From a virus: a DNA stretch of 56,288 nt. Positions 6,611 through 56,288 of the stretch are shown piece by piece. How positions within the stretch are numbered: position 1 is the stretch's first letter; every line of letters starts with the position of its first letter. Where the stretch lies: IMG/VR virus record IMGVR_UViG_3300032893_000058, positions 1-56,288 of that record; one strand, written 5' to 3'. The translations under genes were made by a program, and so were the position numbers. The notes below the pieces were generated by a model. It saw only the letters and a program-made list of their open reading frames with translations. It was not told the origin of the DNA and did no database searches.

Positions 6611-8837
6611 GCCGCGCCCGGTCGTCGTCGGCGCTTCTTCGCTGCCCGTGCTGCAGACGCTGGCCTGGCTGCGCCGCTTTAACTTCCGTCCCGTCGCGCT
6701 GCACCCGCGCCGCAAGGCCGCCGTGTCTCGCGCCTACGTCGATCTCGATTACAAGCCGCCGGACGACGAACTGTGGCAGCACAACGATTATGGCGTCGGC
6801 GTCGTCACCGGGCCGGCGCATTCGGGGCCGGTCGACGTCGATCTCGACTGCGAGGAAGCCGTCTATTTTGCCTCCGTGTTCTTGCCGCCGACGCCGGCCG
6901 TGTTCGGCAGAGAGTCCAAACGTGCGTCGCATTATTTATATCGTGTTGAAACGCCGACATTTGAAAAAAAAGCATTCAACGATCCGCGCAACAACGAATC
7001 CACCATCGTCGAAATGCGGGGCGATGCCGGCCATCAAACAGTGATGCCGGGCTCGATCCACGAGCAGACCGGCGAACTGATCCGCTGGGACAGCGACGAG
7101 AACCCCGACGTGCCGATGGTCGACGCCGCCGAACTCATTCGCGCCGTGCGCAAAGTCGCCGTCGCGGTGCTGGTGGTGCGTCACATCTGGCAGCCGGGCT
7201 TTCATAATTCTCCGTGTTTGAGTTTGTCCGGGCTGTTCTACTATCTTGACTGGTCGCTGGATGAAGCCGAGCAATTCATCGCCGCGGTGTGCGACTACAC
7301 CGACGATCGCGACAAGTCGCGGCTGCCCACGGTGCGCGCCACTTACAAGCGCGGCGAAGCCGGCAAGAAGGTGTCGGGTGCCGGCGTGCTGCGCAAACAA
7401 TTGAACGACGACAAGCTGGTCGATCGGCTGCTCGAGTGGGCCGGCTCGCCGTCAGTAAATTTGATCAACGATTACAATTCGCGCTGGGCGGTGGTGCCGG
7501 TCGGCGGCAAATTTCGCATTGCCGACACCGACGTGCTGCCGGGCCAGCCGCCGCTGTTCTACGGCAAGGAGGACTGGCTCAACCTGGTCGGCACCGACTT
7601 CACCGACATCGAAGGCAAGCCGGTGTTGCGCGGTAAGTTGTGGCTCACCAATCCGCGGCGCCGCGCTTACCGCGGCATCGACTTCGTGCCCGGCGCCGAC
7701 GACGGCCAGACTTTAAACCTGTGGACCGGCTGGGCGGTAGAGCCCAAGGCCGGCGACTGCAGCGCCTGGATCGAACTTTCGCGCGACGTTATTTGCGGTG
7801 GCGACAAACATTTGTTTCGCTGGCTGGCGCACTGGTTCGCCAACATCGTGCGCGAACCGTGCAACAAGTCGCTCACCGCGCTGGTTGTAATCAGTTCGCT
7901 CGAGGGCGCCGGCAAGACGCTGATGTTCGAATATTTCGGACGGATTCTCGGGCCGTCCTACGTCACCGTCACCAAGGAAAACCACATCGTCGGGCAGTTC
8001 AACCGGCATCTAGGCGGCGCGCTACTGCTACACTCCGAGGAAGCACTGTACGGTGGTGACGTCAAGCATGCCGGCATCATTCGCTCACTGATCACCGACC
8101 CGTGGCACATGATCGAGCCCAAAGGCGTCGACAGCCAGAAAGTGCGCAATTATCTGCGGCTGGCCTTGACCAGCAATAACATTCACGCGGCGCCGGCCCG
8201 GCCCAGCGACCGCCGCTACACCGTGATCGACATGAAGGAACGCCGCGCCAGCGACGATCTCATTACGCGGGTGTTGAAGGAATTGGACGGCGACGGGCCG
8301 GCGGCATTGTTCCAGGCGCTGCTCGATCTCGACTATGACCCGGCGCTCCCACGCGTCAACGTCAAGAACGACGCGCTGCTGAGCCTGAAATCGATCAACC
8401 TGCAGCCGATGGAGGCATGGTGGCTCGAGACGTTGCAGGACGGCTTGCTGCTGCCGGATTGCCTGAACTGGGCACAGAAGCCGGAAAAGGACGAGTGGCC
8501 GGAAACGGCGGCCGTGCCGGCGCTGCACGTCGCCATGGCGCTCAACCTGCGTGCCCGCAACGTGCGGTCGGTGCCGTCGGCACAGGCGCTGGCATTCAAC
8601 TTGGAGAAGTTCATCGGCCGGCCGTTTCACCGCTCGAAGCTGAGTTTCGATAATCCGCTGCTTGATGACTATCCGCCGGCAGTCAAGCAACTTAACGGCC
8701 GCATGACCAGCATCGTCAACGTGCCGGACCTGAACTCTTGCCGCGAGGCGTTCGAGCGGTTCATCGGCCAGGATTTCGACTGGCCGGACGAAGGGGAGAG
8801 GAACGATGGACGACGTGAGCCACACCGCGACTTCTGA
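6603..8837 (+). CDS. Primase-helicase (archaeo-eukaryotic-type primase fused to SF3 helicase)
   Basis: 744 residues. The N-terminal part has the bifunctional primase/polymerase pattern, with an acidic metal site in GPVDVDLDCEEA (about residues 75-86) and later VEMRGDAGHQTVMPGS typical of these primases. The C-terminal part is a D5-like superfamily 3 helicase: Walker A ISSLEGAGKT (about residues 428-437), Walker B-like ALLLHSEEALYGG, then an arginine-finger region SDRRYTVIDM. It would unwind and prime phage DNA for the family A polymerase encoded further down the same strand. In some aminoadenine phages a PrimPol takes part in replication, so its nucleotide preference is of interest. Confidence 0.85.
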   Translation: MPKPRPVVVGASSLPVLQTLAWLRRFNFRPVALHPRRKAAVSRAYVDLDYKPPDDELWQHNDYGVGVVTGPAHSGPVDVDLDCEEAVYFASVFLPPTPAVFGRESKRASHYLYRVETPTFEKKAFNDPRNNESTIVEMRGDAGHQTVMPGSIHEQTGELIRWDSDENPDVPMVDAAELIRAVRKVAVAVLVVRHIWQPGFHNSPCLSLSGLFYYLDWSLDEAEQFIAAVCDYTDDRDKSRLPTVRATYKRGEAGKKVSGAGVLRKQLNDDKLVDRLLEWAGSPSVNLINDYNSRWAVVPVGGKFRIADTDVLPGQPPLFYGKEDWLNLVGTDFTDIEGKPVLRGKLWLTNPRRRAYRGIDFVPGADDGQTLNLWTGWAVEPKAGDCSAWIELSRDVICGGDKHLFRWLAHWFANIVREPCNKSLTALVVISSLEGAGKTLMFEYFGRILGPSYVTVTKENHIVGQFNRHLGGALLLHSEEALYGGDVKHAGIIRSLITDPWHMIEPKGVDSQKVRNYLRLALTSNNIHAAPARPSDRRYTVIDMKERRASDDLITRVLKELDGDGPAALFQALLDLDYDPALPRVNVKNDALLSLKSINLQPMEAWWLETLQDGLLLPDCLNWAQKPEKDEWPETAAVPALHVAMALNLRARNVRSVPSAQALAFNLEKFIGRPFHRSKLSFDNPLLDDYPPAVKQLNGRMTSIVNVPDLNSCREAFERFIGQDFDWPDEGERNDGRREPHRDF

Positions 8838-17135: not shown

Positions 17136-17395
17136 CGCAGCGCCAGTTCCGCGCCCTCAAGTGGCGCGAAGTCTACCGTGACGACCGCATCGTCGTCTTC
17201 TCAGGGGGTCTAGATGGCTTCAGCCTCGTCCACGTCAAGCAAGGCCAAAAAGTTACTAACATGTACCGTGTACGAGGACGTTGGTATGACAGCCCGTCCG
17301 AAGCGGTCCTGGCCTACAACGGGCGCCCCCGACGAGACGCTGCAGACCGTGCTAAATCGGTTGAAGGACCCGACCCAGTCGACGCGCTGCCTTGA
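17129..17395 (+). CDS. Possible overlapping small gene before the polymerase
   Basis: 88 residues from a TTG overlapping the previous stop; an ATG at 17045 in the same frame is an alternative. The translation looks protein-like (YRDDRIVVFSGGLDGFSLV, MYRVRGRWYDSPSEAVLAYN). Its 3' end overlaps the polymerase start region by 110-182 bp in another frame, so either this gene or the longer polymerase N-terminus may not be used. Confidence 0.4.
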   Translation: MLTQRQFRALKWREVYRDDRIVVFSGGLDGFSLVHVKQGQKVTNMYRVRGRWYDSPSEAVLAYNGRPRRDAADRAKSVEGPDPVDALP

Positions 17396-19214
17396 CGTCG
17401 AAACGTCCGGGCTTGACTGGCGTAACAACGCCATCGTCGGCTACGTCGTCACGTTCAGCGGCGACCCGCGCGATTCCTATTACGTGCCGTTTCGCCACGC
17501 CGGTAATGCCAACGTCGGGGGTCGCGACGGTCTGAAATCGCCGACCGGCTGGGATGGCAAGCTGTTGCCGGGCGAAAAGGAACTGGTGACGGCGCTCGAC
17601 CAGCCGGGCACGCTGATGTTCGGACACAATCTGGCGTTTGATTTGCGGTTCAAGGCGCGCGTCGGCTTTAAGTTTCAACCGAAGTTCGAAGATACCATAA
17701 TCAACGAACCGCTGCTCGACGAGTATGCGACGTTCTCGCTGGTGGCCTGTGCCGCGCGCCACAACGTGCAGGCCAAGAAGGGCACCGAACTTTATGCTTA
17801 CATGGCTGACAAGCTGGGCGAGAAGAACGACAAGAACATTATGGGCCATTTCTGGCGTCTGTCCGGTGACGATCCGATGGCGGTCGAATATGCCTGCGGC
17901 GACGGCACGTCGACCTGGCAATTGCGCGACGCGCAGATGGTTGAAATTCAGGCGCAGGAATTAGGCCGCGTTCATGCTGTCGAAAGTCGCCTGATCCCGG
18001 TGCTGGCGCGCATGATGGTGCGCGGCGTCAAGGTCGACGAGGAACGCCTGGAATGGCTGATCGGGCACATCGACGATGAAGTCGAAAAACTGAAGAACGA
18101 ATTTCCGCCCGATTTCAACGCACTGTCGCCGACCGACGTGCAGGCGTGGATGGAGAAGCACGGCCATACCGACTGGCCACGCACGGCGCCGTCGCGGACC
18201 CGGCCGCAAGGCTCGCCGTCGTTCACGTCGCACTGGCTCGAGACGCACGAGGCCGGCCGCAAGATCATCAAACTACGCAAGTGGGAGAACCTCAATTCGA
18301 CCTTTTGCCATCCGCTGCGCGATCGGCACCTGTGGCACGGGCGGGTGCACTGCACCTTTAACCAGCTTCGCAACGACGAGTTCGGCACCGTGACCGGGCG
18401 ATTGTCGAGCAACGACCCCAACATGCAACAGGTGCCCAAGCACGACGAGGACTTGGGCCGGCTGTACCGGTCGGTGTTCGTGCCGGATTACGGATTGTGG
18501 GGCGAGCGCGACTACAGTCAGATCGAGCCGCGGCTGATGGCCTGGTATACGCGGGCGCGGGTGTTCCTCGACGACTATCGCAACAACCCGGACGCCGACA
18601 GCCACACCGCAGTGGCCAAGGATGCCAAGGGCGCGGCGTGGGACGACATGTCGCCGGCCGAGCAAAAGCACTTCCGCAACACTTGGGCCAAGCGCGTCAA
18701 TCAGACCGTGATCACGGGGGGCGGTAAGAACGCGCTGATCAAAAAATACAAGATGTCCGAGCAAGAAGCGATGCAGGCGCTGGTGCGCTATTTCAGGACC
18801 GTGCCTGAATTGAAGCCATTTCAGAAGAAGGCGGCGCGGTTGTTCCGCGAGCGCGGCTACGTGCGCGACGTGCTGGGGCGCCGGGCGCACTTGCGCGATC
18901 CGGACAAGGACTACACCGCGATGAACCGGCTGCTGCAGATGAGCAACGCCAGCATGCTCAAACTTAAGATGGCCGAAGTGCAGGAGTATCTGGACAGCGA
19001 GCCACAGGCGCAGGTCGAACTGCTTTTAAATTGTCACGACGCGCTGTCGTTCCAGTTTGCACTTGACAAGCGGTCGCGGGCCGCGTATGCTGAGTGCAAG
19101 CATATCATGGAGGACTTCTCAAGTGACGCGGCGATGGTCAAGATCGACCTGCCGATCAAGGTCGACGAGGGCGACGGCCCGAATTGGAGCGTCGCAACAT
19201 ACGGGGAAGATTGA
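17214..19214 (+). CDS. dpoZ: Family A DNA polymerase with 3'-5' exonuclease, DpoZ-like
   Basis: 666 residues from ATG 17214 (AGGGGG upstream); ATG 17286 with GAGGA is an equally possible start. Exonuclease motifs are intact: I LDVETSG (D61, E63), II FGHNLAFD, III YACGDGTSTW. Polymerase motif A is DYSQIEPR (D433). Motif B reads AKRVNQTVITGGG (K493), where the two usual aromatic positions of the O-helix appear to be Gln and Thr. Motif C is CHDALSF (D609), with Ala after HD instead of the usual Glu. There is no 5' nuclease domain. In the company of purZ, mazZ and datZ it is best read as the polymerase that copies 2-aminoadenine DNA; the DpoZ assignment is by context plus unusual active-site residues. 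Its stop overlaps the methyltransferase start. Confidence 0.85.
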   Translation: MASASSTSSKAKKLLTCTVYEDVGMTARPKRSWPTTGAPDETLQTVLNRLKDPTQSTRCLDVETSGLDWRNNAIVGYVVTFSGDPRDSYYVPFRHAGNANVGGRDGLKSPTGWDGKLLPGEKELVTALDQPGTLMFGHNLAFDLRFKARVGFKFQPKFEDTIINEPLLDEYATFSLVACAARHNVQAKKGTELYAYMADKLGEKNDKNIMGHFWRLSGDDPMAVEYACGDGTSTWQLRDAQMVEIQAQELGRVHAVESRLIPVLARMMVRGVKVDEERLEWLIGHIDDEVEKLKNEFPPDFNALSPTDVQAWMEKHGHTDWPRTAPSRTRPQGSPSFTSHWLETHEAGRKIIKLRKWENLNSTFCHPLRDRHLWHGRVHCTFNQLRNDEFGTVTGRLSSNDPNMQQVPKHDEDLGRLYRSVFVPDYGLWGERDYSQIEPRLMAWYTRARVFLDDYRNNPDADSHTAVAKDAKGAAWDDMSPAEQKHFRNTWAKRVNQTVITGGGKNALIKKYKMSEQEAMQALVRYFRTVPELKPFQKKAARLFRERGYVRDVLGRRAHLRDPDKDYTAMNRLLQMSNASMLKLKMAEVQEYLDSEPQAQVELLLNCHDALSFQFALDKRSRAAYAECKHIMEDFSSDAAMVKIDLPIKVDEGDGPNWSVATYGED

Positions 19215-20008: not shown

Positions 20009-21052
20009 ATGCCTCCCCATGCCGATGTTCTCCAATGGGAACATCTGCCGTTCCCCAAGTCGCTCCGGGATTTCCAGCGGCTTTTCCCGACTGATACTGC
20101 CTGCGCCCGCTGGCTTGAGGGTGCTAAGTGGCCGAAGGGCTTTGAGTGCCCGCATTGCCACGAAAAGGGCGACCCGCAACGGCTGGAATCCCGTCCGGGC
20201 GTCTTGGCTTGCCGATCCTGCCGTAAGCAAACGTCGCTGACGGTCGGCACGGTGATGGAGCGGACACATACGCCGCTCGCAACATGGTTTTGGGCGGCCT
20301 ACCTCGTTTCCAGCCTGACACCCGGCATTTCGGCCGTTCAACTGCAACGGCAGGTCGGACTTACAAGGTACGAGACGGCCTTCCAAATCCTGCACAAGCT
20401 CCGCGCTGGCATGGTGCGGCCAAACCGCGACCAGATCGGCGGCAATCTGGCGCGCGGCGATCATGTCGAGGTCGATGAATGTTATATCGGCGGCGAGACG
20501 CGCGGTAAGGGCAAAGGCGTGCACGCCGACGAAAAGACCCTGGTTGTTGCTGCGGTCGAAGTCCGCACGCGACCGGCCAAGAAGGGCGATAAGCCTATGC
20601 GGCGCGGCGGCCGATATGCTGGCCGTCTGCGGCTGGAAATCGCGCCGACACGTGGCGAGAAATCCCTCTGCGGCTTTGTGGAGGCTGCCGTCGCGCCGGG
20701 CGCAATCGTCATCACGGATGCGGCCCCGGCTTATAGGAACCTCGAAAAGCTCGGCTATGCCCATCTGCCGGTGATTGAAGGCGGCAATCCGGAAGTCGCC
20801 GAAGAATATCTGCCCATCGTCCACTTGGTTTTCAGCAACCTGAAAGCTTGGCTGCAGGGCACCCATCACGGTCGCGTCGAGCCCAAGCACCTGCAGACTT
20901 ATCTCAACGAGTTCACCTTCCGCTTTAACCGGCGGTTCTACCCATTCAACGCTTTCCGCTCGTTGCTCGGCATCGGGGCAAACGGCGAAGCTCCGACCTA
21001 TGATGGGCTCTATAGCGGGAAGTGGAAGCATCGGACGCTCGATCATGACTGA
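20009..21052 (+). CDS. IS1595-family transposase
   Basis: 347 residues. An N-terminal zinc ribbon (CPHCHEKGDP, then CRSCRKQ) is followed by a DDE/DDN-type catalytic domain: VEVDECYIGG (first acidic residue), IVITDAAPAYRNL (second), and STDH-like NLKAWLQGTHHGRVEPKHLQ with FTFRFNRRF near the end. Layout and length fit the ISXO2-like transposase family of IS1595 elements. It appears intact. Confidence 0.92.
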   Translation: MPPHADVLQWEHLPFPKSLRDFQRLFPTDTACARWLEGAKWPKGFECPHCHEKGDPQRLESRPGVLACRSCRKQTSLTVGTVMERTHTPLATWFWAAYLVSSLTPGISAVQLQRQVGLTRYETAFQILHKLRAGMVRPNRDQIGGNLARGDHVEVDECYIGGETRGKGKGVHADEKTLVVAAVEVRTRPAKKGDKPMRRGGRYAGRLRLEIAPTRGEKSLCGFVEAAVAPGAIVITDAAPAYRNLEKLGYAHLPVIEGGNPEVAEEYLPIVHLVFSNLKAWLQGTHHGRVEPKHLQTYLNEFTFRFNRRFYPFNAFRSLLGIGANGEAPTYDGLYSGKWKHRTLDHD

Positions 21053-21092
21053 TCAACCAATAGAGGCTGCATGTTCAAACCGGATAAGCATG

Positions 21093-21100
21093 TATTAAAC
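21093..21100. repeat. Target site duplication, right copy (TATTAAAC)
   Basis: Identical to 19356-19363, directly after the right inverted repeat. Confidence 0.9.
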
Positions 21101-21649
21101 GATATAAACCCGTACTTGATAAACATGTGGCACGCCGCTTATGACGGATGGAACCCCCCGGAAAAGGTGACGGAACGCGATTATATTTATTACAATAAAA
21201 CACGCCCGATAAATGATCCAATGACAGGTTATGTTGGGTTTGCGTGGTCATTTGGGGGTAAATTCTTTGGTGGCGCGGCACGCACCAATGGCAGGATAAA
21301 AGGATCATATAAATCAACGCGCGATAAGATCGATGTCATACGCGCGAATAATGTGCGGTTCACATGCGGGCATTTTTCCTTGGTTAAACCGCAATCGCAG
21401 TCAGTTGTTTATCTGGACCCACCTTATGAGGCCCGCACCCATCAATCACATTTGAGCAAAAGGTTCAATTACGACGAATATTTTATCTACGCCGAGAATC
21501 TTGCAAAACGTCACGTGGTGATTGCTACGTCGTTTACCAACGAACGCAAATGGAAGGTGTTGCACAATTATGGCGATACTGTCGTGCGCCATCACGCCGG
21601 AAAAGCCCCCGATGGTACAATAGAGCTGCTGTTACGGGTAGGAAAATGA
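21101..21649 (+). pseudogene. D12-class adenine methyltransferase, 3' fragment (split by IS)
   Basis: The remaining 182 residues, starting with DINPYLINMW directly after the target duplication. It contains the catalytic motif IV DPPY (VVYLDPPYEARTH). The segment is AT-rich compared with the polymerase. An ATG inside the right end of the IS (21071) could start a truncated protein, but motif I would be missing. Its stop overlaps the next start by 4 bp. Confidence 0.88.
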
Positions 21650-22149
21650 AGGAAACCGCCATTCAAGCCATCGTCTGCGACGTGGTCAACGAGGCCGGCG
21701 GCTTCGCCATGAAGATGGACAACGCGTTCGTCGGCGGCGTGGCGGACCTGCTGATAAAATTGCCGAATTACAGGCAATTTAAAGGTTGGCGCGGTCGTGG
21801 TGACGCAGCTAGTTTTCTTGAAGTTAAGCAACGGGTCCGTCCGCGCACCGGCAATGCGACGTTCTCGCTCGACGTGACGCACCTGCAGGACAAGTTCTTG
21901 CGCCGAGCCGACGCCGCCGGCATCCCGTGCGGTGTGGCATCGTTCATGCAAGAAGGCACCGGGTCGGGGCTGAAATTGTGGCTGCACGTGATGACCTGGC
22001 GCGTCGCTAGCTACGAGGACGGTGTCGGTGCCAAAGCGTACACGACCTGTCCGGACGCACACATCCTGCTGGGGCGCAAGGGCGAGCGCGAAGGCCCGCT
22101 GCTCAGCGCACTATATGACTGGCACCAAAAATGGAGGGAAGAGCGATGA
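21646..22149 (+). CDS. VRR-NUC-like nuclease
   Basis: 167 residues. The core has the PD-(D/E)XK/VRR-NUC pattern: a helix with AGGFAMKMDN, the G-x-x-D motif GGVADLLIKL, and the strand ASFLEVKQ carrying E and K. The tail end (LQDKFLRRADAAGIPCGVA) matches the family's final helix-strand. Such proteins act as Holliday-junction resolvases or structure-specific nucleases in replication and packaging. It is translationally coupled to the broken methyltransferase. Confidence 0.65.
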   Translation: MKETAIQAIVCDVVNEAGGFAMKMDNAFVGGVADLLIKLPNYRQFKGWRGRGDAASFLEVKQRVRPRTGNATFSLDVTHLQDKFLRRADAAGIPCGVASFMQEGTGSGLKLWLHVMTWRVASYEDGVGAKAYTTCPDAHILLGRKGEREGPLLSALYDWHQKWREER

Positions 22150-22655
22150 CCTTGGGAACCGTCGACTATCGCTGCGACGAGTGCAACGCTGACTATAAGA
22201 ATTGCGGCGGTGGCGACCTGATACAATGTCCCAAGAACCGCGGCCCTAATAAAGGGTGCGGGTTGCGCATGGTGCGTCACACGGACGAAATCGTAGCCGG
22301 TAATGCCGAAACTGCGGCGCTGTTGTCGCAGCCAGAAATTACCGCCAAAGCGTCGTGGTTATTGGCCGAAGGCGGCCAGTCTTTGGCCTCCATCCTGTCC
22401 GACCGCGGCAAGACCCACGGCGATTTCGGCGACAACGCTGAAATTGCGCTGCAGATTCGCGACGTGATGCGCAGTGCCAAGCCGCACTGGTCGAACCTGT
22501 CAGCCGAGCAGCGACTGGCGCTTGAAGAGATCGCGCTCAAGATCGCCCGCATCTGTAGCGGCGGCAACTGGGAGGCGGAACACTGGCGCGACATCCAAGG
22601 CTACGCTAAGCTGGGCGAAAACGTGTGCAACAGCAGGAACGCGGCGCAAGAATGA
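22146..22655 (+). CDS. Zinc-ribbon plus DUF6378-like protein
   Basis: 169 residues from ATG 22146 (overlapping the previous stop). The N-terminus has Cys pairs (YRCDECNADY, GGDLIQCP, GCGLRM) like an RNA polymerase subunit-type zinc ribbon. The C-terminal domain has DRGKTHGDFGDN, EIALKIARICSGG and DIQGYAKL, a pattern of a phage family of unknown function (DUF6378-like). Just upstream of purZ. Confidence 0.6.
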   Translation: MTLGTVDYRCDECNADYKNCGGGDLIQCPKNRGPNKGCGLRMVRHTDEIVAGNAETAALLSQPEITAKASWLLAEGGQSLASILSDRGKTHGDFGDNAEIALQIRDVMRSAKPHWSNLSAEQRLALEEIALKIARICSGGNWEAEHWRDIQGYAKLGENVCNSRNAAQE

Positions 22656-22798
22656 AACTGCTTTGTTATTGGTTTGGTCATAAATGGAAATGGTCAGAGT
22701 GGTGGACACCGCCAACTGTACCGCCTAGTCCGTGTCTTTATCGCTGGAAAACGTGCCAGCGATGCGGAGAATCTTATCGTCAGCACGTTTTAAAATAG
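22652..22798 (+). CDS. Small Cys/Trp-rich phage protein (DUF1660-like)
   Basis: 48 residues, coupled to the previous gene (ATGA). Layout CYWFGHKWKW, then CQRCGESY matches small phage proteins with one Cys near GHKW and a CxxC, probably metal-binding. Function unknown. Confidence 0.55.
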   Translation: MKLLCYWFGHKWKWSEWWTPPTVPPSPCLYRWKTCQRCGESYRQHVLK

Positions 22799-22809
22799 GA
22801 GATCAGATC

Positions 22810-23901
22810 ATGTGGCTCGATCAATTCTGTCAGCGCGGCAAGGCCGACGTGATCGTCGGCGGGCAATGGGGCTCGGAAGGCAAGGGCGCCGCGGCGGCCT
22901 ATCTGGCGCGGCGGTTAGCCGAAGGTTTTCGCTCCTACGATGTTTACAGCACCAATGCCGGCGCCCAGGCCGGACACACATCGGTTCACAGGGGACGCAA
23001 GCGCGTCGTGTTTCATTTGCCGACCGCGGCACTGATCGCGCGGGATCACGATTTTCCTGGACTGATCCACTTGAACGGCGGGTCGATCATCGACCCCGAC
23101 GTGTTGGAACAGGAACTTAAGGACAACGACCTGACCACCACCGACGTTCAAATTCACGCCAATGCCGCGGTGATCACGCAGGACTGCAAGGACGCCGAGG
23201 GCTTGGCTCATTCAGTGCAGACCAAGATTGCTTCGACCCGCAAGGGCGTCGGCGAGGCGCTGGCGCGCAAGGTGCTGCGATCCGGCGTGATCGCCAAGGA
23301 CCACCCGTTCCTGCGCCAGTTCGTGCGCCCGATACCGTGGCGCATGTTGAGCATTGACCGGGTCCTGGTTGAAGTGCCGCAAGGCATCGGGCTGTCGGTC
23401 GACGGGCAATTTTACCCGCACTGCACGTCGCGCAATTGCACGCTGCAGCAGGGGCTGGCCGATGCCGGCATTCACCCGCGCCAGTTCGGCGCCTCGATGT
23501 TGGTGCTGCGTACCACGCCGATCAGAGTCGGCAACATTGTCGAATCGTTGAGTATTGACACGCCATTTGGCGCGGTACGCAGTAAACCCACTGTGCTTGG
23601 CACGTCCGGCGGCTACTATGCTGACCAGCGGGAATTGTCGTGGAACGAATTAGGCGTGCCGCCGGAAATTACCACCGTGACCAAGCGCGTGCGCCGCGTG
23701 TTCTCGTTCTCGGGTCGGCAGGCGCGTGAAGCCATAATGCTGACGCGCCCTGACGTGGTACATCTGACGTTCTGCGATTACCCGGTTAACGTGGCTGAAA
23801 TCACGATCAGCATTATCAACACGGCGGAGCATTTCAGGCTTGAGCCTAAGGTGTTGTTCCAATACGGGCCGACGACTGACGACGTTCAGGAGGAAATGTG
23901 A
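22810..23901 (+). CDS. purZ: PurZ, 2-aminoadenylosuccinate synthetase
   Basis: 363 residues from ATG 22810 with AGGAGA upstream; an in-frame codon at 22732 overlaps the upstream small gene. It belongs to the adenylosuccinate synthetase family: P-loop GGQWGSEGKG (residues 17-26), NAGAQAGHT with the conserved His56, TRKGVGEA, and GTSGGYYADQ near the end. In PurA the P-loop reads GDEGKG with a catalytic Asp; here it is Ser22, the change known to mark PurZ, which joins aspartate to dGMP to make the precursor of 2-aminoadenine. It is shorter than typical PurA (about 430). Followed by mazZ and datZ, it commits this phage to a Z-genome (function by family knowledge). Confidence 0.93.
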   Translation: MWLDQFCQRGKADVIVGGQWGSEGKGAAAAYLARRLAEGFRSYDVYSTNAGAQAGHTSVHRGRKRVVFHLPTAALIARDHDFPGLIHLNGGSIIDPDVLEQELKDNDLTTTDVQIHANAAVITQDCKDAEGLAHSVQTKIASTRKGVGEALARKVLRSGVIAKDHPFLRQFVRPIPWRMLSIDRVLVEVPQGIGLSVDGQFYPHCTSRNCTLQQGLADAGIHPRQFGASMLVLRTTPIRVGNIVESLSIDTPFGAVRSKPTVLGTSGGYYADQRELSWNELGVPPEITTVTKRVRRVFSFSGRQAREAIMLTRPDVVHLTFCDYPVNVAEITISIINTAEHFRLEPKVLFQYGPTTDDVQEEM

Positions 23902-24212
23902 GCCGCACCACGCTGTCCGACCGCCGGTTGTCAATAACGGCCAAACTGACACACATCAAGGCTGACGGCGGCGAATTGCACGTCATCGCTACCTTCGGAC
24001 TTGACAGAGGACAGGTGCGTGAAGTTTTTTGCAGTTCATTCAAGGACGGTGCCGACGTGCGGGGCCTGGTCATCGACGCCTGCGTCTGCATGTCGTTGTT
24101 GCTGCAACACGGGTATTCGGTGCGGGACCTGAAGGGCAAGTTGATCCCGGCGCCGCAGTCGGTGCTGGCGACGCTGGTCGACGCGGCGATAGAGATAGAG
24201 GGTGAAAAATGA
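23898..24212 (+). CDS. TSCPD-domain-like protein coupled to purZ
   Basis: 104 residues from a GTG overlapping the purZ stop (GTGA). The pattern RGQVREVFCSSFKDGADVRG, then IDACVCMSLLLQHGYSV resembles the TSCPD domain found at the C-terminus of some ribonucleotide reductases and as stand-alone alphaproteobacterial proteins. Its biochemical role is unknown. Its overlap with both purZ and mazZ (4 bp each) suggests it belongs to the Z pathway, perhaps in nucleotide sensing or scaffolding (inference). Confidence 0.6.
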   Translation: MSRTTLSDRRLSITAKLTHIKADGGELHVIATFGLDRGQVREVFCSSFKDGADVRGLVIDACVCMSLLLQHGYSVRDLKGKLIPAPQSVLATLVDAAIEIEGEK

Positions 24213-24598
24213 GCGAACCATCAGCCAGACAACAATTTGAAAATAAATACGGCGTGCCGACTGAAGTGTATTGCATGAAATGTGACAATTGTTGCTTACG
24301 TATTGACGGTTCAGTAATTTCACCTGAACGCATCCGGCCGACAGTGGCTGCTTTTGCTGTTGCTATGGAGGCCAAACTTCGCAAAAATGACCACAAGACC
24401 GCGTGGCGCGACTTGCCGGTCGAGGCGCTGTTTCGGCAGTTGCTGATTGAACTTGAGGAATTCAAGGTCGCTGACGAGTTTCTCAACGTGTCCGAGGCCC
24501 GTAAGGAACTGGTCGATCTGGCCAATTTTTGCCTCATCCTGCACGACCGTCTCGGCATGCTCGACCAGGATAAGAACCGCCATGCCCAACCAAAGTGA
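24209..24598 (+). CDS. mazZ: MazZ-like (d)GTP pyrophosphohydrolase
   Basis: 129 residues. MazG/DUF550-type all-alpha NTP-PPase: FAVAMEAKLRKND, then LLIELEEFKVA (acidic residues 81, 83, 84) and EARKELVDLANFCLILHDRL (E100, D103), the metal-binding ExxE...ExxD arrangement. In known Z phages MazZ cuts (d)GTP to (d)GMP, the PurZ substrate. An N-terminal Cys cluster (C22, C25, C28, C29) is an extra feature that may bind a metal. Coupled to its neighbours; overlaps datZ by 17 bp. Confidence 0.82.
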   Translation: MSEPSARQQFENKYGVPTEVYCMKCDNCCLRIDGSVISPERIRPTVAAFAVAMEAKLRKNDHKTAWRDLPVEALFRQLLIELEEFKVADEFLNVSEARKELVDLANFCLILHDRLGMLDQDKNRHAQPK

Positions 24599-25223
24599 AC
24601 TGATCCAGATGTTTCCGCCCGAACTGCGCACGGCGTCGGTCGTGCCGCGTTGGTCGGTGTTGTGGACGCTGACGCGCGATACCATCGCCAACCACAGTTT
24701 TTATGTGGCGATATATGCGCGGTCCATCGCCCGGCTGATCAAGTGGCGCAGCTCAAATTACGCTATGTTGATATATTTGGCGTTGACCCACGATCTGGAC
24801 GAGACGATCACGGGCGATATCGTGTCGCCGATCAAGTCGGAAATCGTGGACCGCGACCGCTATGACGCGCTGGTGGCGCGCAAGATGCGCGAGCGGCTGC
24901 CTGACATCGAGGCCGAACTGTCGGTATGGGCTAATACGACTGGCCGGGGCGCCTCCTTCGGCCACGTCGGGGCGGAGCAACAATATGACGAAGCCTGGAA
25001 AATCATCGCCGTGGCCGATCGCCTTGACGCGCTGCTGTTTCTGATCGGCGAGCAGCGCATGGGCAACGGCGTCATTGCGCCGCGCATTCCGGACGCGCAA
25101 AACCGTCTGCACGCGGCGTTCATGGAACTGCCGAAGGTCAAGCAGGAACTGGAAGCATTGTGGCAGTGCGTAATGCTGCCGGTGATCCGGGAACACGGCG
25201 ACACGGGAGGGAACGGCGTTTAA
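24582..25223 (+). CDS. datZ: DatZ-like HD-domain dATP triphosphohydrolase
   Basis: 213 residues from ATG 24582. The HD phosphohydrolase site is intact: RW at 23-24, IANHSF (H38), LTHDLDE (H70, D71), and AVADRLDALL (D146). The size and motif spacing fit YfbR/DatZ-like enzymes. In Z phages DatZ removes dATP so that only dZTP is available for replication. It lies directly after mazZ and overlaps the following helicase start (TAATG). Confidence 0.87.
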   Translation: MPNQSELIQMFPPELRTASVVPRWSVLWTLTRDTIANHSFYVAIYARSIARLIKWRSSNYAMLIYLALTHDLDETITGDIVSPIKSEIVDRDRYDALVARKMRERLPDIEAELSVWANTTGRGASFGHVGAEQQYDEAWKIIAVADRLDALLFLIGEQRMGNGVIAPRIPDAQNRLHAAFMELPKVKQELEALWQCVMLPVIREHGDTGGNGV

Positions 25224-26647
25224 TGCGCTGGCACCTGAACCACGCCGTACACGGCACGAAGCCTTGGGCCGTGCAGCATGCCTATCTCGACGCTGCGGCC
25301 GGACGCCAGCGCTACGGCAATTTTTCGCAGCAGGGGCTGGGCAAGACCGCCGACACGCTCAACGAATTCATTGACTTCGAGGACGTGGACCTGTGCGTCG
25401 TGCTGGCGCCGTCCAGCTTCATGGCCGACTGGCCGCTGGCGCCGGCCGAGTGGGGCGCCGGTTTCTTGCGCACCGGCATGTGGGGGCGCGACGACTTGCC
25501 CTTCGACTGGGACTGCGGCCTGTACTCCATCGCGCACGAGACGCTGCGCGGGTCGAAGCGCGCTCGCGACGAACTGCTGGAATTATTTGAAAAGCGACGC
25601 TGCATGCTGGTGTTCGACGAGGGCACCGGTATCAAGGATGCAAATTCAGTGTTGGCGCGGTACGTTGTCGGCGCCCTGTCCAAGGAAGCCGTATACACGC
25701 GGGTGCTCAACGGCACGCCAATAGTGCAGGACGCGCTCGACTACTTTGCACAACTGCGCCTGCTGGGCGAATGCAACGGCATGAATCCTTACGCCTTCCG
25801 CAACCGGTTTTGCCAGATGGGGGGCTTCAAGGGTAAACAGGTCAAAGGCATTCGCAACGAAGACGAATTGGGCCGCATCCTCGACCGCTGCTCGTTCCGA
25901 GCGCTGAAACGCGACTGGCGCAAGGACCTGCCGCCGCAGATCGACCAGCCCATTCATCTTGAAATGACCGACAGCCAGCGCAAGCACTATCATACGATGA
26001 TGGAAGAGTTTTATGCGCTGGTCGGCGACGACGAAGAAGTCAGCGCTGAACTGGTGTTGACCCAGCGCCTTAAACTGCAACAAATCTCATCCTGCATGCT
26101 GATGGACAAGGGTAAGGTGCACTGGCTGGAATTGCCGAAGAACAATCCGAAACTGCGCGCCGCGTTCGACCTGATGGAGACGGGCAACGGCAAGATGATC
26201 GTCGTCTATTACTTCGACCCGTCCGGCCGCATGCTGATCGAACAATTTCAAGAAGCCGGATATGCCCCGGCCTGGATCACGGGCGGCATGACGGCCGAGG
26301 ACATCGTGGTACAGAAGGCAAAGTTCAACAACGATTCGTCGTGCCGGGTGCTCATCGGACAGATTGACCAGACCAGCCGCGGTCACACGCTCGTCGGCAA
26401 GCCGGGCAACGACCGCTGCTCGCGCACCTATTATTACGAGACGGACCTGAGCCTGATGCACCGGCTGCAGATGAACGACCGCAATCATCGTGGCGAGCAG
26501 GACGAGACGTGCTACATTTACGATCCCATCGCGTCGCCAATCGACCAGTTAAACGTCGACATCTTGACGCGTAAGAAGACCCAGGCCGACGGAATGGACG
26601 AACTGGTGCGATTGATAAGGGAGCAAAAGCATGGCCGAGCAGCTTAA
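25223..26647 (+). CDS. SNF2-type superfamily 2 helicase
   Basis: 474 residues from ATG 25223. Motif I GLGKTADTL (about residue 40), motif Ia LAPSSFMADW, II LVFDEGTGI (DEGx instead of the usual DEAH), III LNGTPI, IV KMIVVYYFDP, V IDQTSRGHTL, VI MNDRNHRGEQ. This matches phage SNF2-like helicases. It probably acts in replication or recombination, or in displacing proteins from DNA. Confidence 0.83.
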   Translation: MRWHLNHAVHGTKPWAVQHAYLDAAAGRQRYGNFSQQGLGKTADTLNEFIDFEDVDLCVVLAPSSFMADWPLAPAEWGAGFLRTGMWGRDDLPFDWDCGLYSIAHETLRGSKRARDELLELFEKRRCMLVFDEGTGIKDANSVLARYVVGALSKEAVYTRVLNGTPIVQDALDYFAQLRLLGECNGMNPYAFRNRFCQMGGFKGKQVKGIRNEDELGRILDRCSFRALKRDWRKDLPPQIDQPIHLEMTDSQRKHYHTMMEEFYALVGDDEEVSAELVLTQRLKLQQISSCMLMDKGKVHWLELPKNNPKLRAAFDLMETGNGKMIVVYYFDPSGRMLIEQFQEAGYAPAWITGGMTAEDIVVQKAKFNNDSSCRVLIGQIDQTSRGHTLVGKPGNDRCSRTYYYETDLSLMHRLQMNDRNHRGEQDETCYIYDPIASPIDQLNVDILTRKKTQADGMDELVRLIREQKHGRAA

Positions 26648-53558: not shown

Positions 53559-56288
53559 TGCCAAGTTGTACTCGACATTGCACTTTGTAAGTATGACACG
53601 CCTTGCGTACCATAAAAGGTGCAGCCGGTGGTGGTGCTGGAAAATTCCAAGGCCGCCAGCGTATGAAAGCCTAACGGAGCGACGCCTTCATAGCGGCCCA
53701 CTACCTGGGTAAATTGCCCAACAAACGAACTGAACAGGAATGCGCCACTGGGCGCCGTCGTGCTGTCCAACCCGACGCCGACGGAACAATTGGTAGCAGT
53801 TCCCGCTGCCGTTTCGCCGTTGTACACCGCATCGATGGCGTCTTCTGACACGCCCTCCAAAAATTGAGTTTGCATACCGGCCGAAGCATTAACTTGGTGC
53901 CAGGAAGCAGTATTCCAGGTCCAACTGGCGGCATTATCGCCGACCATCGTCTTGATCGAAACGCGATTGTAATAATTATACAGTGCATAAAGCCCAGCTG
54001 TGGCATGGCCCCCCGACGTGCCTATCGCGCCGAATGTAAAGCTAGTCTGGCCGTTGGCCGTCGCGTATAATGAACCAAGATAAGTACCTTGGTCAGCCGC
54101 AACAGTGCCGAAATCGGTCGTCCCGCTGGCACCGCCATAACAATGTGTCAGCGAATTCTGGTTAGTCAGGAACCCCACAGTCATATTGACGTGAATTTGC
54201 GTCGTGCCGGCACCCGTGCCACGCGTGCTGGTGGTGCTCCACGCCGGACCGGCGCAGATCGCGAGCGTTCCTGAATTGTTGATCGCGAATACGTCATAAA
54301 CGCTGCCGCTGGCAATGTGCGGCGTGACGGCATCCAACCCCATCGAAATTTCGCAACTGCCGATGGCCAGGAACGTTGCCTGAGTGCCGTTGTACACCGC
54401 GACGTTCGGACCTTTATAACAATCTAAGAAGACCGTGGTCTTGGCCGATTGCGTGGTGGTCATGACCGGCGTAGCACTCTGCAGCGTCAACCGGCCTTGA
54501 CTTGCCGACAAGTTGCTCAGGACCCAGGCGGGCAGGCCGCCGGAATTTCCCAATACTTGACCTGCGCTGCCAACTGCTAGGCGCGCAAGATGCGTGCCTG
54601 AATCGCGATAATAAGTGTCGCCGGTCGCATCGGAACCTAGCGACATCGTCACTGTGCCGAGCGTGTCGGTATTTGAGGTAATGGTCTTGTTCGTCAGCGT
54701 GTCTGTCGTTGCTTTACCAACCAGCGTGTCCGTGGCCGCAGGGAACGTCAGCGTGCCGCTCGCTGTGGCGCTAGCGTTCAGCGTGGTCGAGCCACTGGAC
54801 GACCCGTTCAAAATCAAATCGCTGGAATTAAAACTCTGCGCCGCGGACCACGTCTGCGCCAGATTAAGTTCTGCAACGATGCCGGTGTTCGCAGGCAACG
54901 TTGCCGTTCCGCTTGCCGTGGCGCTGGCATTCAACGTCGTCGAGCCGCTAGACGAACCGTTCAAAACCAGGTCGCTGGAATTGAAGCTCTGCGCCGCGGA
55001 CCAGGTCTGAGCGAGATTTAATTCGGCGATTATGCCGGTGTTGGCTGGCAACGTTGCCGTACCACTGGCAACCGCAGTGGCATTCAGTATAGTGTTACCC
55101 GAGGAAGAACCGCCCAGGAACAGATTATTGGAGGCAATGACGATGTTTGAGCCGTTGCTCGTCACCCCGGCCACGCAGCCAAAGGCGCCGGCGGCGTTGT
55201 ATTGCAGCGAAAGAGCCGTAGTTGTACACGGCGTACCTGAACCGCCACTGACGTTGGTCCAACTCATCACGCCAGCCGTGGTCGAAGTCAGCGAATAACC
55301 ATTGCCGGCCGGCGGCGCCGCGGGCAACGTATAAGTGCCGCTGACGGTGGTGGGGGTGGCAAACGAAACTGAGCCGCTGTTTGCGTACAACGTCAGCGAC
55401 TGCGTCGTAAGCATTTTCTTATTATCCAGGTAATAGCCCATGGCATTACCCAGATTGTTGGTTCCGTTGCCGCACATATTGATCGTGCTGGGGCCTTGAT
55501 CGGCCATCGTCACGCCGCCACTCGGCAACGCAAACTGGCCGCAATGCGCCGTAATACCGCCAGTTTCTTCACCCGCCATCAGACCAGAGCGAATTTCAAA
55601 GCGTGGCACGACCGAAGGGACCGACAGTGCCTGCGTATCGATACCCACGGTCGAGAAGATTTGTGCGGCTTTTACGTCCTTATAGCTATTACCAGCCGTA
55701 CCGACTGACACAATCTTGTTTAGCCACTGGGTGTAGCCAAATTCCAGTGTCGTGTTACCGTTGAGCGCGAAGGCGTTGATGCCCAGCAGATAGTCACCCG
55801 ATTGTTGCGTACGTGCAGTGTTTACTCGATAGTAGGAGAGAACCGGCCCCACATCAAGCGTTGTCCCATACGGAATGGGCGTGATATCGGCGGAGAAAAT
55901 TTCCTGGAAGTTGCTGTTAGAGAAACAGCCGGTATTAAGCTTTGGCGCCCCGACAGGGCAATTGTTGGGCGGCCCTGCAGGACCAGGTAAGCCGGTCTGA
56001 TCCAGATAACTAGATGATACAATGGGAAAATCCTTCGAAGTAGTCCAGAAATCGAAGCTACCCGCCCCCGAGCGCTTCATCACGCCTTTATAGGCAATAA
56101 TGTCTGTATTAGTCGCAGGCGGGCCGCCAAAATGAGCGCTCGTCACGATTTCTGCCAGGGCCTGTGTGCCTGCCGATGCCTGGGCCGTACAGCCCGTGCC
56201 GCCTTCCTGTGCGCTCGTTAGCGCCCCTGTGCTCGTGTTGACGAAAATACAATAAGAGCCGTTGGAACCTGAACTTGACGCCGTCAAC
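53555..56288 (-). CDS. Tail fibre / receptor-binding protein, C-terminal 868 residues
   Basis: Continuation of the gene starting at 2058; bases 56162-56288 repeat 1-127. The sequence is Gly/Ser/Thr-rich. Three tandem 51-residue repeats (NLAQTWSAAQSFNSSDL, LNASATASGTATLPANTGI) lie at DNA about 54753, 54906 and 55059. Further on comes TLTNKTITSNTDTLGTV, a motif common in phage fibre shafts. The last 300 residues (from about DCYKGPNVAVYNGTQATF) look like a globular beta tip for receptor binding. No chaperone or peptidase domain is visible. Confidence 0.85.
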   Translation of the reverse strand, partial: LTASSSGSNGSYCIFVNTSTGALTSAQEGGTGCTAQASAGTQALAEIVTSAHFGGPPATNTDIIAYKGVMKRSGAGSFDFWTTSKDFPIVSSSYLDQTGLPGPAGPPNNCPVGAPKLNTGCFSNSNFQEIFSADITPIPYGTTLDVGPVLSYYRVNTARTQQSGDYLLGINAFALNGNTTLEFGYTQWLNKIVSVGTAGNSYKDVKAAQIFSTVGIDTQALSVPSVVPRFEIRSGLMAGEETGGITAHCGQFALPSGGVTMADQGPSTINMCGNGTNNLGNAMGYYLDNKKMLTTQSLTLYANSGSVSFATPTTVSGTYTLPAAPPAGNGYSLTSTTAGVMSWTNVSGGSGTPCTTTALSLQYNAAGAFGCVAGVTSNGSNIVIASNNLFLGGSSSGNTILNATAVASGTATLPANTGIIAELNLAQTWSAAQSFNSSDLVLNGSSSGSTTLNASATASGTATLPANTGIVAELNLAQTWSAAQSFNSSDLILNGSSSGSTTLNASATASGTLTFPAATDTLVGKATTDTLTNKTITSNTDTLGTVTMSLGSDATGDTYYRDSGTHLARLAVGSAGQVLGNSGGLPAWVLSNLSASQGRLTLQSATPVMTTTQSAKTTVFLDCYKGPNVAVYNGTQATFLAIGSCEISMGLDAVTPHIASGSVYDVFAINNSGTLAICAGPAWSTTSTRGTGAGTTQIHVNMTVGFLTNQNSLTHCYGGASGTTDFGTVAADQGTYLGSLYATANGQTSFTFGAIGTSGGHATAGLYALYNYYNRVSIKTMVGDNAASWTWNTASWHQVNASAGMQTQFLEGVSEDAIDAVYNGETAAGTATNCSVGVGLDSTTAPSGAFLFSSFVGQFTQVVGRYEGVAPLGFHTLAALEFSSTTTGCTFYGTQGVSYLQSAMSSTTWQ
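56162..56288. repeat. 127-bp end overlap identical to bases 1-127
   Basis: Every base from 56162 to 56288 equals 1 to 127, within the fibre gene. The length of 127 matches a common assembler k-mer, so this is most likely an assembly overlap of a circular (circularly permuted) genome rather than a real terminal repeat. Confidence 0.9.

Follow-up and report, generated by a model that had tools for sequence, protein, structure and literature searches.

The window analyzed here is the whole 56,288-base stretch of IMG/VR record IMGVR_UViG_3300032893_000058. It has a GC content of 59.6% and ends in an exact direct repeat of 127 bases, positions 1–127 being identical to 56162–56288. Owing to this repeat, the closing part of one gene occurs at both ends, and the assembly is probably complete, being either circular or terminally redundant. 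A megablast search of phages with 20 kb of the window gave no match. The gene of interest, purZ, starts at an ATG preceded, eight bases earlier, by the sequence AGGAG (22797–22801). Upstream lie, in order, a DpoZ-type PolA gene, an IS1595 transposase gene, a methyltransferase remnant, a VRR-NUC-type nuclease gene and a DUF6378 gene. On the other side of purZ are a 104-amino acid open reading frame, MazZ-like and DatZ-like genes, and an SNF2 helicase gene (Table 1).

Table 1. Features of the purZ locus (positions are those of the window)
Feature	Position	Strand	Basis or remark
DpoZ-type family A DNA polymerase, 3'-5' exonuclease	17214..19214	+	NF038380, motifs
IS1595-family transposase	20009-21052		directly before D12-class methyltransferase
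D12-class adenine-N6 methyltransferase remnant	21071-21649		DPPY kept, N-terminal part missing
DUF6378 protein	22131..22655	+	PF19905 (weak); synteny
purZ, PurA-superfamily enzyme, 363 aa	22810..23901	+	Pfam, NCBIfam, PHROG, tree, AlphaFold
P-loop GGQWGSEGKG	22858..22887	+	Ser22 codon TCG at 22873-22875, PurA Asp13 position
Gln53, near-invariant Asn position (S-2L N49)	22966..22968	+	alignment, PMC8342488
Ser301	23710..23712	+	residue comparison across phage PurZ, PurA, PurZ0, cellular paralogs
Donor-base site T320-F321-C322-D323	23767..23778	+	alignment, PMC8342488
mazZ-like MazG-type nucleotide pyrophosphohydrolase, predicted dGTP to dGMP	24209..24598	+	profile matches
datZ-like HD phosphohydrolase, predicted dATPase	24582..25223	+	PF12917, phrog_7076 dATP triphosphohydrolase
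SNF2-type helicase, 3' end of conserved block	25160..26647	+	phrog_62 E=3e-69; synteny

The purZ product belongs to the adenylosuccinate synthetase family of Pfam, and its top NCBIfam and PHROG families are both PurZ families. The NCBIfam PurZ model (NF038379) scores 197.8 bits (E=2.3e-58), below its curated cutoff of 300 though still the best family; the PurZ clade has two distant halves, one Ochrobactrum-like and the other holding phiVC8. Solved structures were searched with a profile built without the phages that yielded the phiVC8 and S-2L structures. This search returned phiVC8 PurZ at 4.6e-94, S-2L PurZ at 6.6e-84 and Pyrococcus PurA at 1.7e-54. An AlphaFold model made with 46 sequences from the window and the fetched loci (mean pLDDT 94.2, pTM 0.92) best matches phiVC8 PurZ bound to dGMP (Z 42.4, rmsd 1.9 over 322 residues), with Z values of 40.1 for S-2L PurZ, 38.7 for Pyrococcus PurA and 37.9 for PurZ0. 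This ranking of a predicted structure supports a PurZ assignment, although PurZ, PurA and PurZ0 all share one fold. The protein keeps the superfamily residues K25, H56, Q191, R239, T289, T291, R295 and R296, and among them K25, H56, Q191, R239, R295 and R296 supply the catalytic Lys, His, Gln and Arg residues. The catalytic Asp13 of PurA is replaced by Ser22.

Homologs were gathered from named phages, IMG/VR and GTDB genomes, and canonical and short archaeal-type PurA proteins were taken from whole genomes. Scanning viral contigs with a single sequence gave no homologs, and an alignment query of the IMG/VR contigs found 560 relatives. The search pattern was specific for Ser and biased the IMG/VR and GTDB sets toward this residue, so no frequency of Ser among cellular PurA proteins is claimed. 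In a 114-row tree, the phage PurZ clade that includes phiVC8, S-2L and SH-Ab15497 has an SH-aLRT value of 99. The window protein falls within a seven-row subclade (99) nested in a 54-row phage clade (99), which includes Ochrobactrum phage OH and joins the phiVC8/S-2L/SH-Ab group. A more careful 37-row tree gives phage PurZ a bootstrap of 100/100. Thus, the protein groups with characterized PurZ enzymes apart from PurA in both trees, and in neither does it join the actinophage PurZ0 clade. These trees give no firm branching order among PurZ, PurZ0 and the cellular clades. Separate cellular origins for PurZ0 and PurZ were considered; forcing the two into one clade costs 6 log units (p-AU 0.2), and a single origin is therefore not rejected.

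The original prediction placed Ser22 at the catalytic Asp position of PurA, within the motif GGQWGSEGKG. This residue is indeed encoded there, although the coordinates proposed for the motif (22861–22890) were one codon late. The prediction also took the Asp-to-Ser change from published work as the mark of PurZ, and the literature agrees. Ser is present in 100% of 147 phage sequences and Asp13 is retained in 99% of the PurA group (PMC12884076), and Ser occurs among PurZ models "without exception" (PMC8515928). In our thinned set, Ser occupies this position in all 62 phage homologs and in 4/4 PurZ0 proteins, and Asp occupies it in 9/9 PurA proteins; Ser is thus not there by chance. That the protein is shorter than PurA holds for the bacterial enzymes (408–446 amino acids). 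However, archaeal-type PurA proteins (336–340 amino acids) are shorter than the window protein, and so protein length is not diagnostic.

The proposal that Ser22 is the strongest single piece of evidence for Z synthesis fares less well. Every phage PurZ and PurZ0 protein carries the residue, but so do large families of cellular PurA paralogs. Ser occurs in each of the 38 cellular rows left after thinning, a set picked partly by the Ser pattern. On the tree, five of them group with phage PurZ and may be prophages. The others come from Pseudomonadota, Acidobacteriota, Bacteroidota, Myxococcota, Planctomycetota, Actinomycetota, archaea and other groups, and the chromosomal genes include examples from Pseudomonas, Bradyrhizobium, Cupriavidus, Nostoc and Lokiarchaeota. 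We regard these genes as paralogs because 13 of the 15 genomes searched that hold a Ser-type gene also encode a full-length PurA. The two without one are small archaeal metagenome-assembled genomes that are probably incomplete. It follows that Ser by itself is no proof of Z synthesis. As a mark of PurZ, Ser22 is correct without being exclusive, and, since Ser also appears in many ordinary bacterial and archaeal genes, the best evidence for Z synthesis is the gene cluster together with the family tree. At position 301, 60/60 core phage PurZ proteins carry Ser, and PurA, PurZ0 and both cellular clades mostly carry Asp. Position 218 follows a similar pattern. As judged from the alignment, Ser301 and Asp218, both found in the window protein, are more specific for phage PurZ than Ser22 is.

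The cellular Ser-type genes lie in cassettes of two kinds. In clade A (28 loci), a fusion protein of ∼540 residues joins a P-loop kinase-like domain to a Ser-type PurA and is followed by a DUF7002 gene, often with a gene for an M78 peptidase/Macro protein. In clade B, exemplified by three loci, a gene for an RNase_H_2/DUF429/kinase-like protein is followed by the PurA gene and by genes for a dCTP-deaminase-like protein and a deoxynucleoside kinase; in the Lokiarchaeota locus, an adenylosuccinate lyase (purB) gene is adjacent. PADLOC contains no model matching the PurA part of these cassettes, and searching the literature turned up no description of cellular Ser-type PurA cassettes. Both may be unrecognized purine-modifying or defense systems. 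These paralogs resemble the window protein in their GGQ[FY]GSEGKG motif and in an Asp at the donor site. They differ in being non-phage genes accompanied by fused or adjacent kinases and by DUF7002, dCTP-deaminase-like and deoxynucleoside kinase genes.

The original prediction overlooked two further features of the protein, its donor-base site and Gln53. In S-2L PurZ, the amino group on the adenine of ATP or dATP is recognized by Asn305 and Gln308 (Asn297 in phiVC8), the latter of which reportedly clashes with a 2-amino group (PMC8342488). The aligned site reads TFCD in the window protein, TKLD in PurA, NFCN in phiVC8 and NFAQ in S-2L. Therefore, the ATP-type pair of Asn with Asn or Gln is absent, and Thr320 and Asp323 resemble the T-K-L-D of GTP-using PurA; the stacking Phe321 is kept. 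Asp323 recurs in 13 of 62 other phage homologs (four PurZ0 rows excluded) and in most of the window's subclade, indicating that it is a variable trait inside PurZ. This position has changed about 12 times on the tree, and independent contrasts of Asp323 with Glu23 or with residue 320 offer few pairs. The aligned residues suggest, less firmly than the PurZ assignment itself, that the pocket would use GTP or dGTP, or have relaxed use, instead of ATP. The simplest reading, that it accepts GTP or dGTP, has about an even chance of being right, and the pocket may be a variant within PurZ. One sentence of PMC12884076 assigns ATP to PurZ0 and GTP to PurZ, contradicting the introduction of that paper and the S-2L data; we take PurZ to be an ATP user. 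Gln53 replaces a near-invariant Asn, which forms part of the dGMP pocket in S-2L (N49; PMC8342488), in 13 of 101 phage sequences, all in or near the window's subclade.

PurZ is expected to be accompanied by DatZ, by MazZ or DUF550, and usually by DpoZ; DatZ-like, MazZ-like and DpoZ-type genes flank purZ here. Without the insertion element and methyltransferase remnant, the order DpoZ, nuclease, DUF6378, PurZ, MazZ, DatZ, helicase recurs in the six closest IMG/VR contigs and is seen in Ochrobactrum phage OH; DpoZ, DatZ and the helicase recur around most other phage homologs. The polymerase matches the DpoZ model with E=4.3e-81 and 273 bits, short of the cutoff of 500. Its motif B, from residue 491 on, is AKRVNQTVITGG, with Thr at the gate position equivalent to Klenow Tyr766. 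A Phe replacing the Tyr gate in helix O was reported to be common to both DpoZ clades (PMC8599892), and phiVC8 DpoZ has Phe459. However, the window and its subclade relatives have Thr, and since relatives have Thr, Ser or Tyr, the reported Phe is not universal among the polymerases of PurZ phages. The polymerase is thus called DpoZ-type by homology and synteny only.

In profile comparisons, the MazZ-like protein matches the small proteins p33 of Ochrobactrum phage OH (99.4%) and p26 of phiVC8 (95.6%) and the MazG-like structure 2p06 (E=2e-12), and it does not match S-2L MazZ; it is therefore of the "MazZ-2" sort. In the DatZ-like protein, R23, W24, V26, H38, H70, D71, E74, P83, K85 and D146 match S-2L R19, W20, I22 and their partners. 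These include the HD metal ligands H38, H70, D71 and D146, as well as W24, V26 and P83, whose S-2L equivalents read the base, and K85; the S-2L counterparts of W24, P83 and K85 are Trp20, Pro79 and Lys81, and V26 is a conservative change from Ile22. The top match of this protein to 6ZPA was set aside, as the profile includes S-2L DatZ itself and the comparison is circular. A predicted dGTP-to-dGMP step, PurZ, a candidate dATPase and a dedicated polymerase together make a much better case for Z-DNA than one residue does.

Set against known systems, the protein resembles phiVC8 PurZ in fold, in Ser at the Asp13 position, in the Ser301 motif and in having MazZ-2, DatZ and DpoZ as neighbors. However, the two are ∼34% identical, and phiVC8 has GSTGKG instead of GSEGKG and carries Asn in place of Gln53 and at both donor-base positions. 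Cyanophage S-2L PurZ (PDB 7ODX) shares the fold, the Ser (Ser23) and an adjoining DatZ, but S-2L has PrimPol without DpoZ, a different MazZ and Asn/Gln at the donor site. The closest named phage is Ochrobactrum phage vB_OspP_OH (39.6% identity in PurZ). It has the same order of PolI, nuclease, PurZ, MazZ, DatZ and helicase, whereas its GSTGKG motif, its LNFMNY donor site and the Ser at its polymerase gate differ.

We consider it highly probable that this is an authentic phage PurZ (2-amino adenylosuccinate synthetase) and that its phage is of the Z type, and synthesis of a Z precursor is very likely, given the PurZ clade, the phiVC8-like AlphaFold model and the DpoZ/MazZ/DatZ block. Sequence, clade, predicted fold and gene cluster are the direct basis for this reading, and from them we infer the substrate, the reaction and the presence of Z in the DNA. 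Against it count the PurZ and DpoZ model scores, which fall short of their cutoffs, Gln53 and Asp323, which differ from the characterized enzymes, and the source of the window in an uncultivated assembly. A phage-borne PurA that raises host AMP synthesis from IMP would have the same fold and Pfam family, and GSEGKG retains the PurA Glu14 just as Thr320 and Asp323 are PurA-like; it is nevertheless very improbable, because Asp13 is missing, both trees put the protein inside phage PurZ and outside PurA, and the Z-cluster partner genes are present. A PurZ0-type enzyme, from the GTP-using early branch, is about as improbable. PurZ0 proteins (Gordonia phage PDB 7VF6; Arthrobacter phages) do have Ser at the Asp13 position followed by Glu, and a donor-base Asp, so Glu23 and Asp323 could be taken as PurZ0 traits. 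This assignment is disfavored by both trees, where the protein lies deep in PurZ and PurZ0 forms a separate clade outside it. PurZ0 proteins also have Asp or Glu at the Ser301 position, and their genomes carry a DutZ/DmtZ set in place of the DatZ and MazZ found here (PMC12884076).

A different question is what Ser22 itself signifies, and the answer is compatible with the gene being purZ in either case. The residue could simply have been inherited with a wider Ser-type family and have little bearing on dGMP, specificity residing elsewhere; we give this idea slightly less than an even chance. The tree shows one Asp/Ser change, at a point below PurZ, PurZ0 and two cellular clades, and the Ser hydroxyl of S-2L PurZ lies 3.7 Å from the 2-amino group, beyond the reach of the postulated hydrogen bond (PMC8342488). 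This distance, together with the 15 PurZ-specific residues listed for S-2L PurZ in the same study, means that Ser is not established as a single specificity switch. However, the cellular paralogs may use dGMP or GMP, and Ser would then mark guanine use. A more speculative and rather doubtful extension is that Ser arose once in cellular PurA paralogs that make 2-aminoadenine-type nucleotides, and that the window's subclade regained a GTP-type pocket. The neighbors of this proposed cellular family are nucleotide kinase, dCTP-deaminase-like, deoxynucleoside kinase or adenylosuccinate lyase genes.

For the preferred PurZ reading, the following pathway is proposed. The neighboring MazZ would provide dGMP, which PurZ, driven by an NTP, would join with aspartate to give N6-succino-2-amino-dAMP. 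Host enzymes would carry this product on to dZTP, DatZ would clear dATP, and the DpoZ-type polymerase would build DNA with Z (2-aminoadenine) replacing A. Ser22, in place of the general base Asp13 of PurA, would provide space for, and tolerance of, the guanine 2-amino group as one part of a larger remodeled pocket.

PurZ is in use as a marker for phages in which Z replaces A. If the Ser mark is common to chromosomal genes, then searches based on Ser will report too many Z genomes, and the cellular paralogs offer a test of how Z synthesis originated. The Thr320/Asp323 pair, in turn, would predict the energizing nucleotide for half of the PurZ family, a large group that has so far gone unstudied.

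Several minor observations were made on these loci. The adenine methyltransferase remnant sits in a phage expected to be without adenine. A search for inverted repeats that would mark the ends of the IS1595 element found none, and the transposase–methyltransferase pair has no match in the related contigs. The DUF6378 gene is a steady neighbor of purZ, upstream in the window's group and downstream in phiVC8, ZP6 and BUCT555; its product is possibly another nucleotide pool enzyme. Homologs from gut Clostridia and Bacilli (12 loci) carry the motif GQAGSCGKG and adjoin a NUDIX hydrolase gene. In one contig (L095, ∼7200–7595), a MazZ homolog 64% identical to that of the window, with an in-frame stop, lies beside a far less similar PurZ, hinting that single Z-cluster genes are exchanged between phages.
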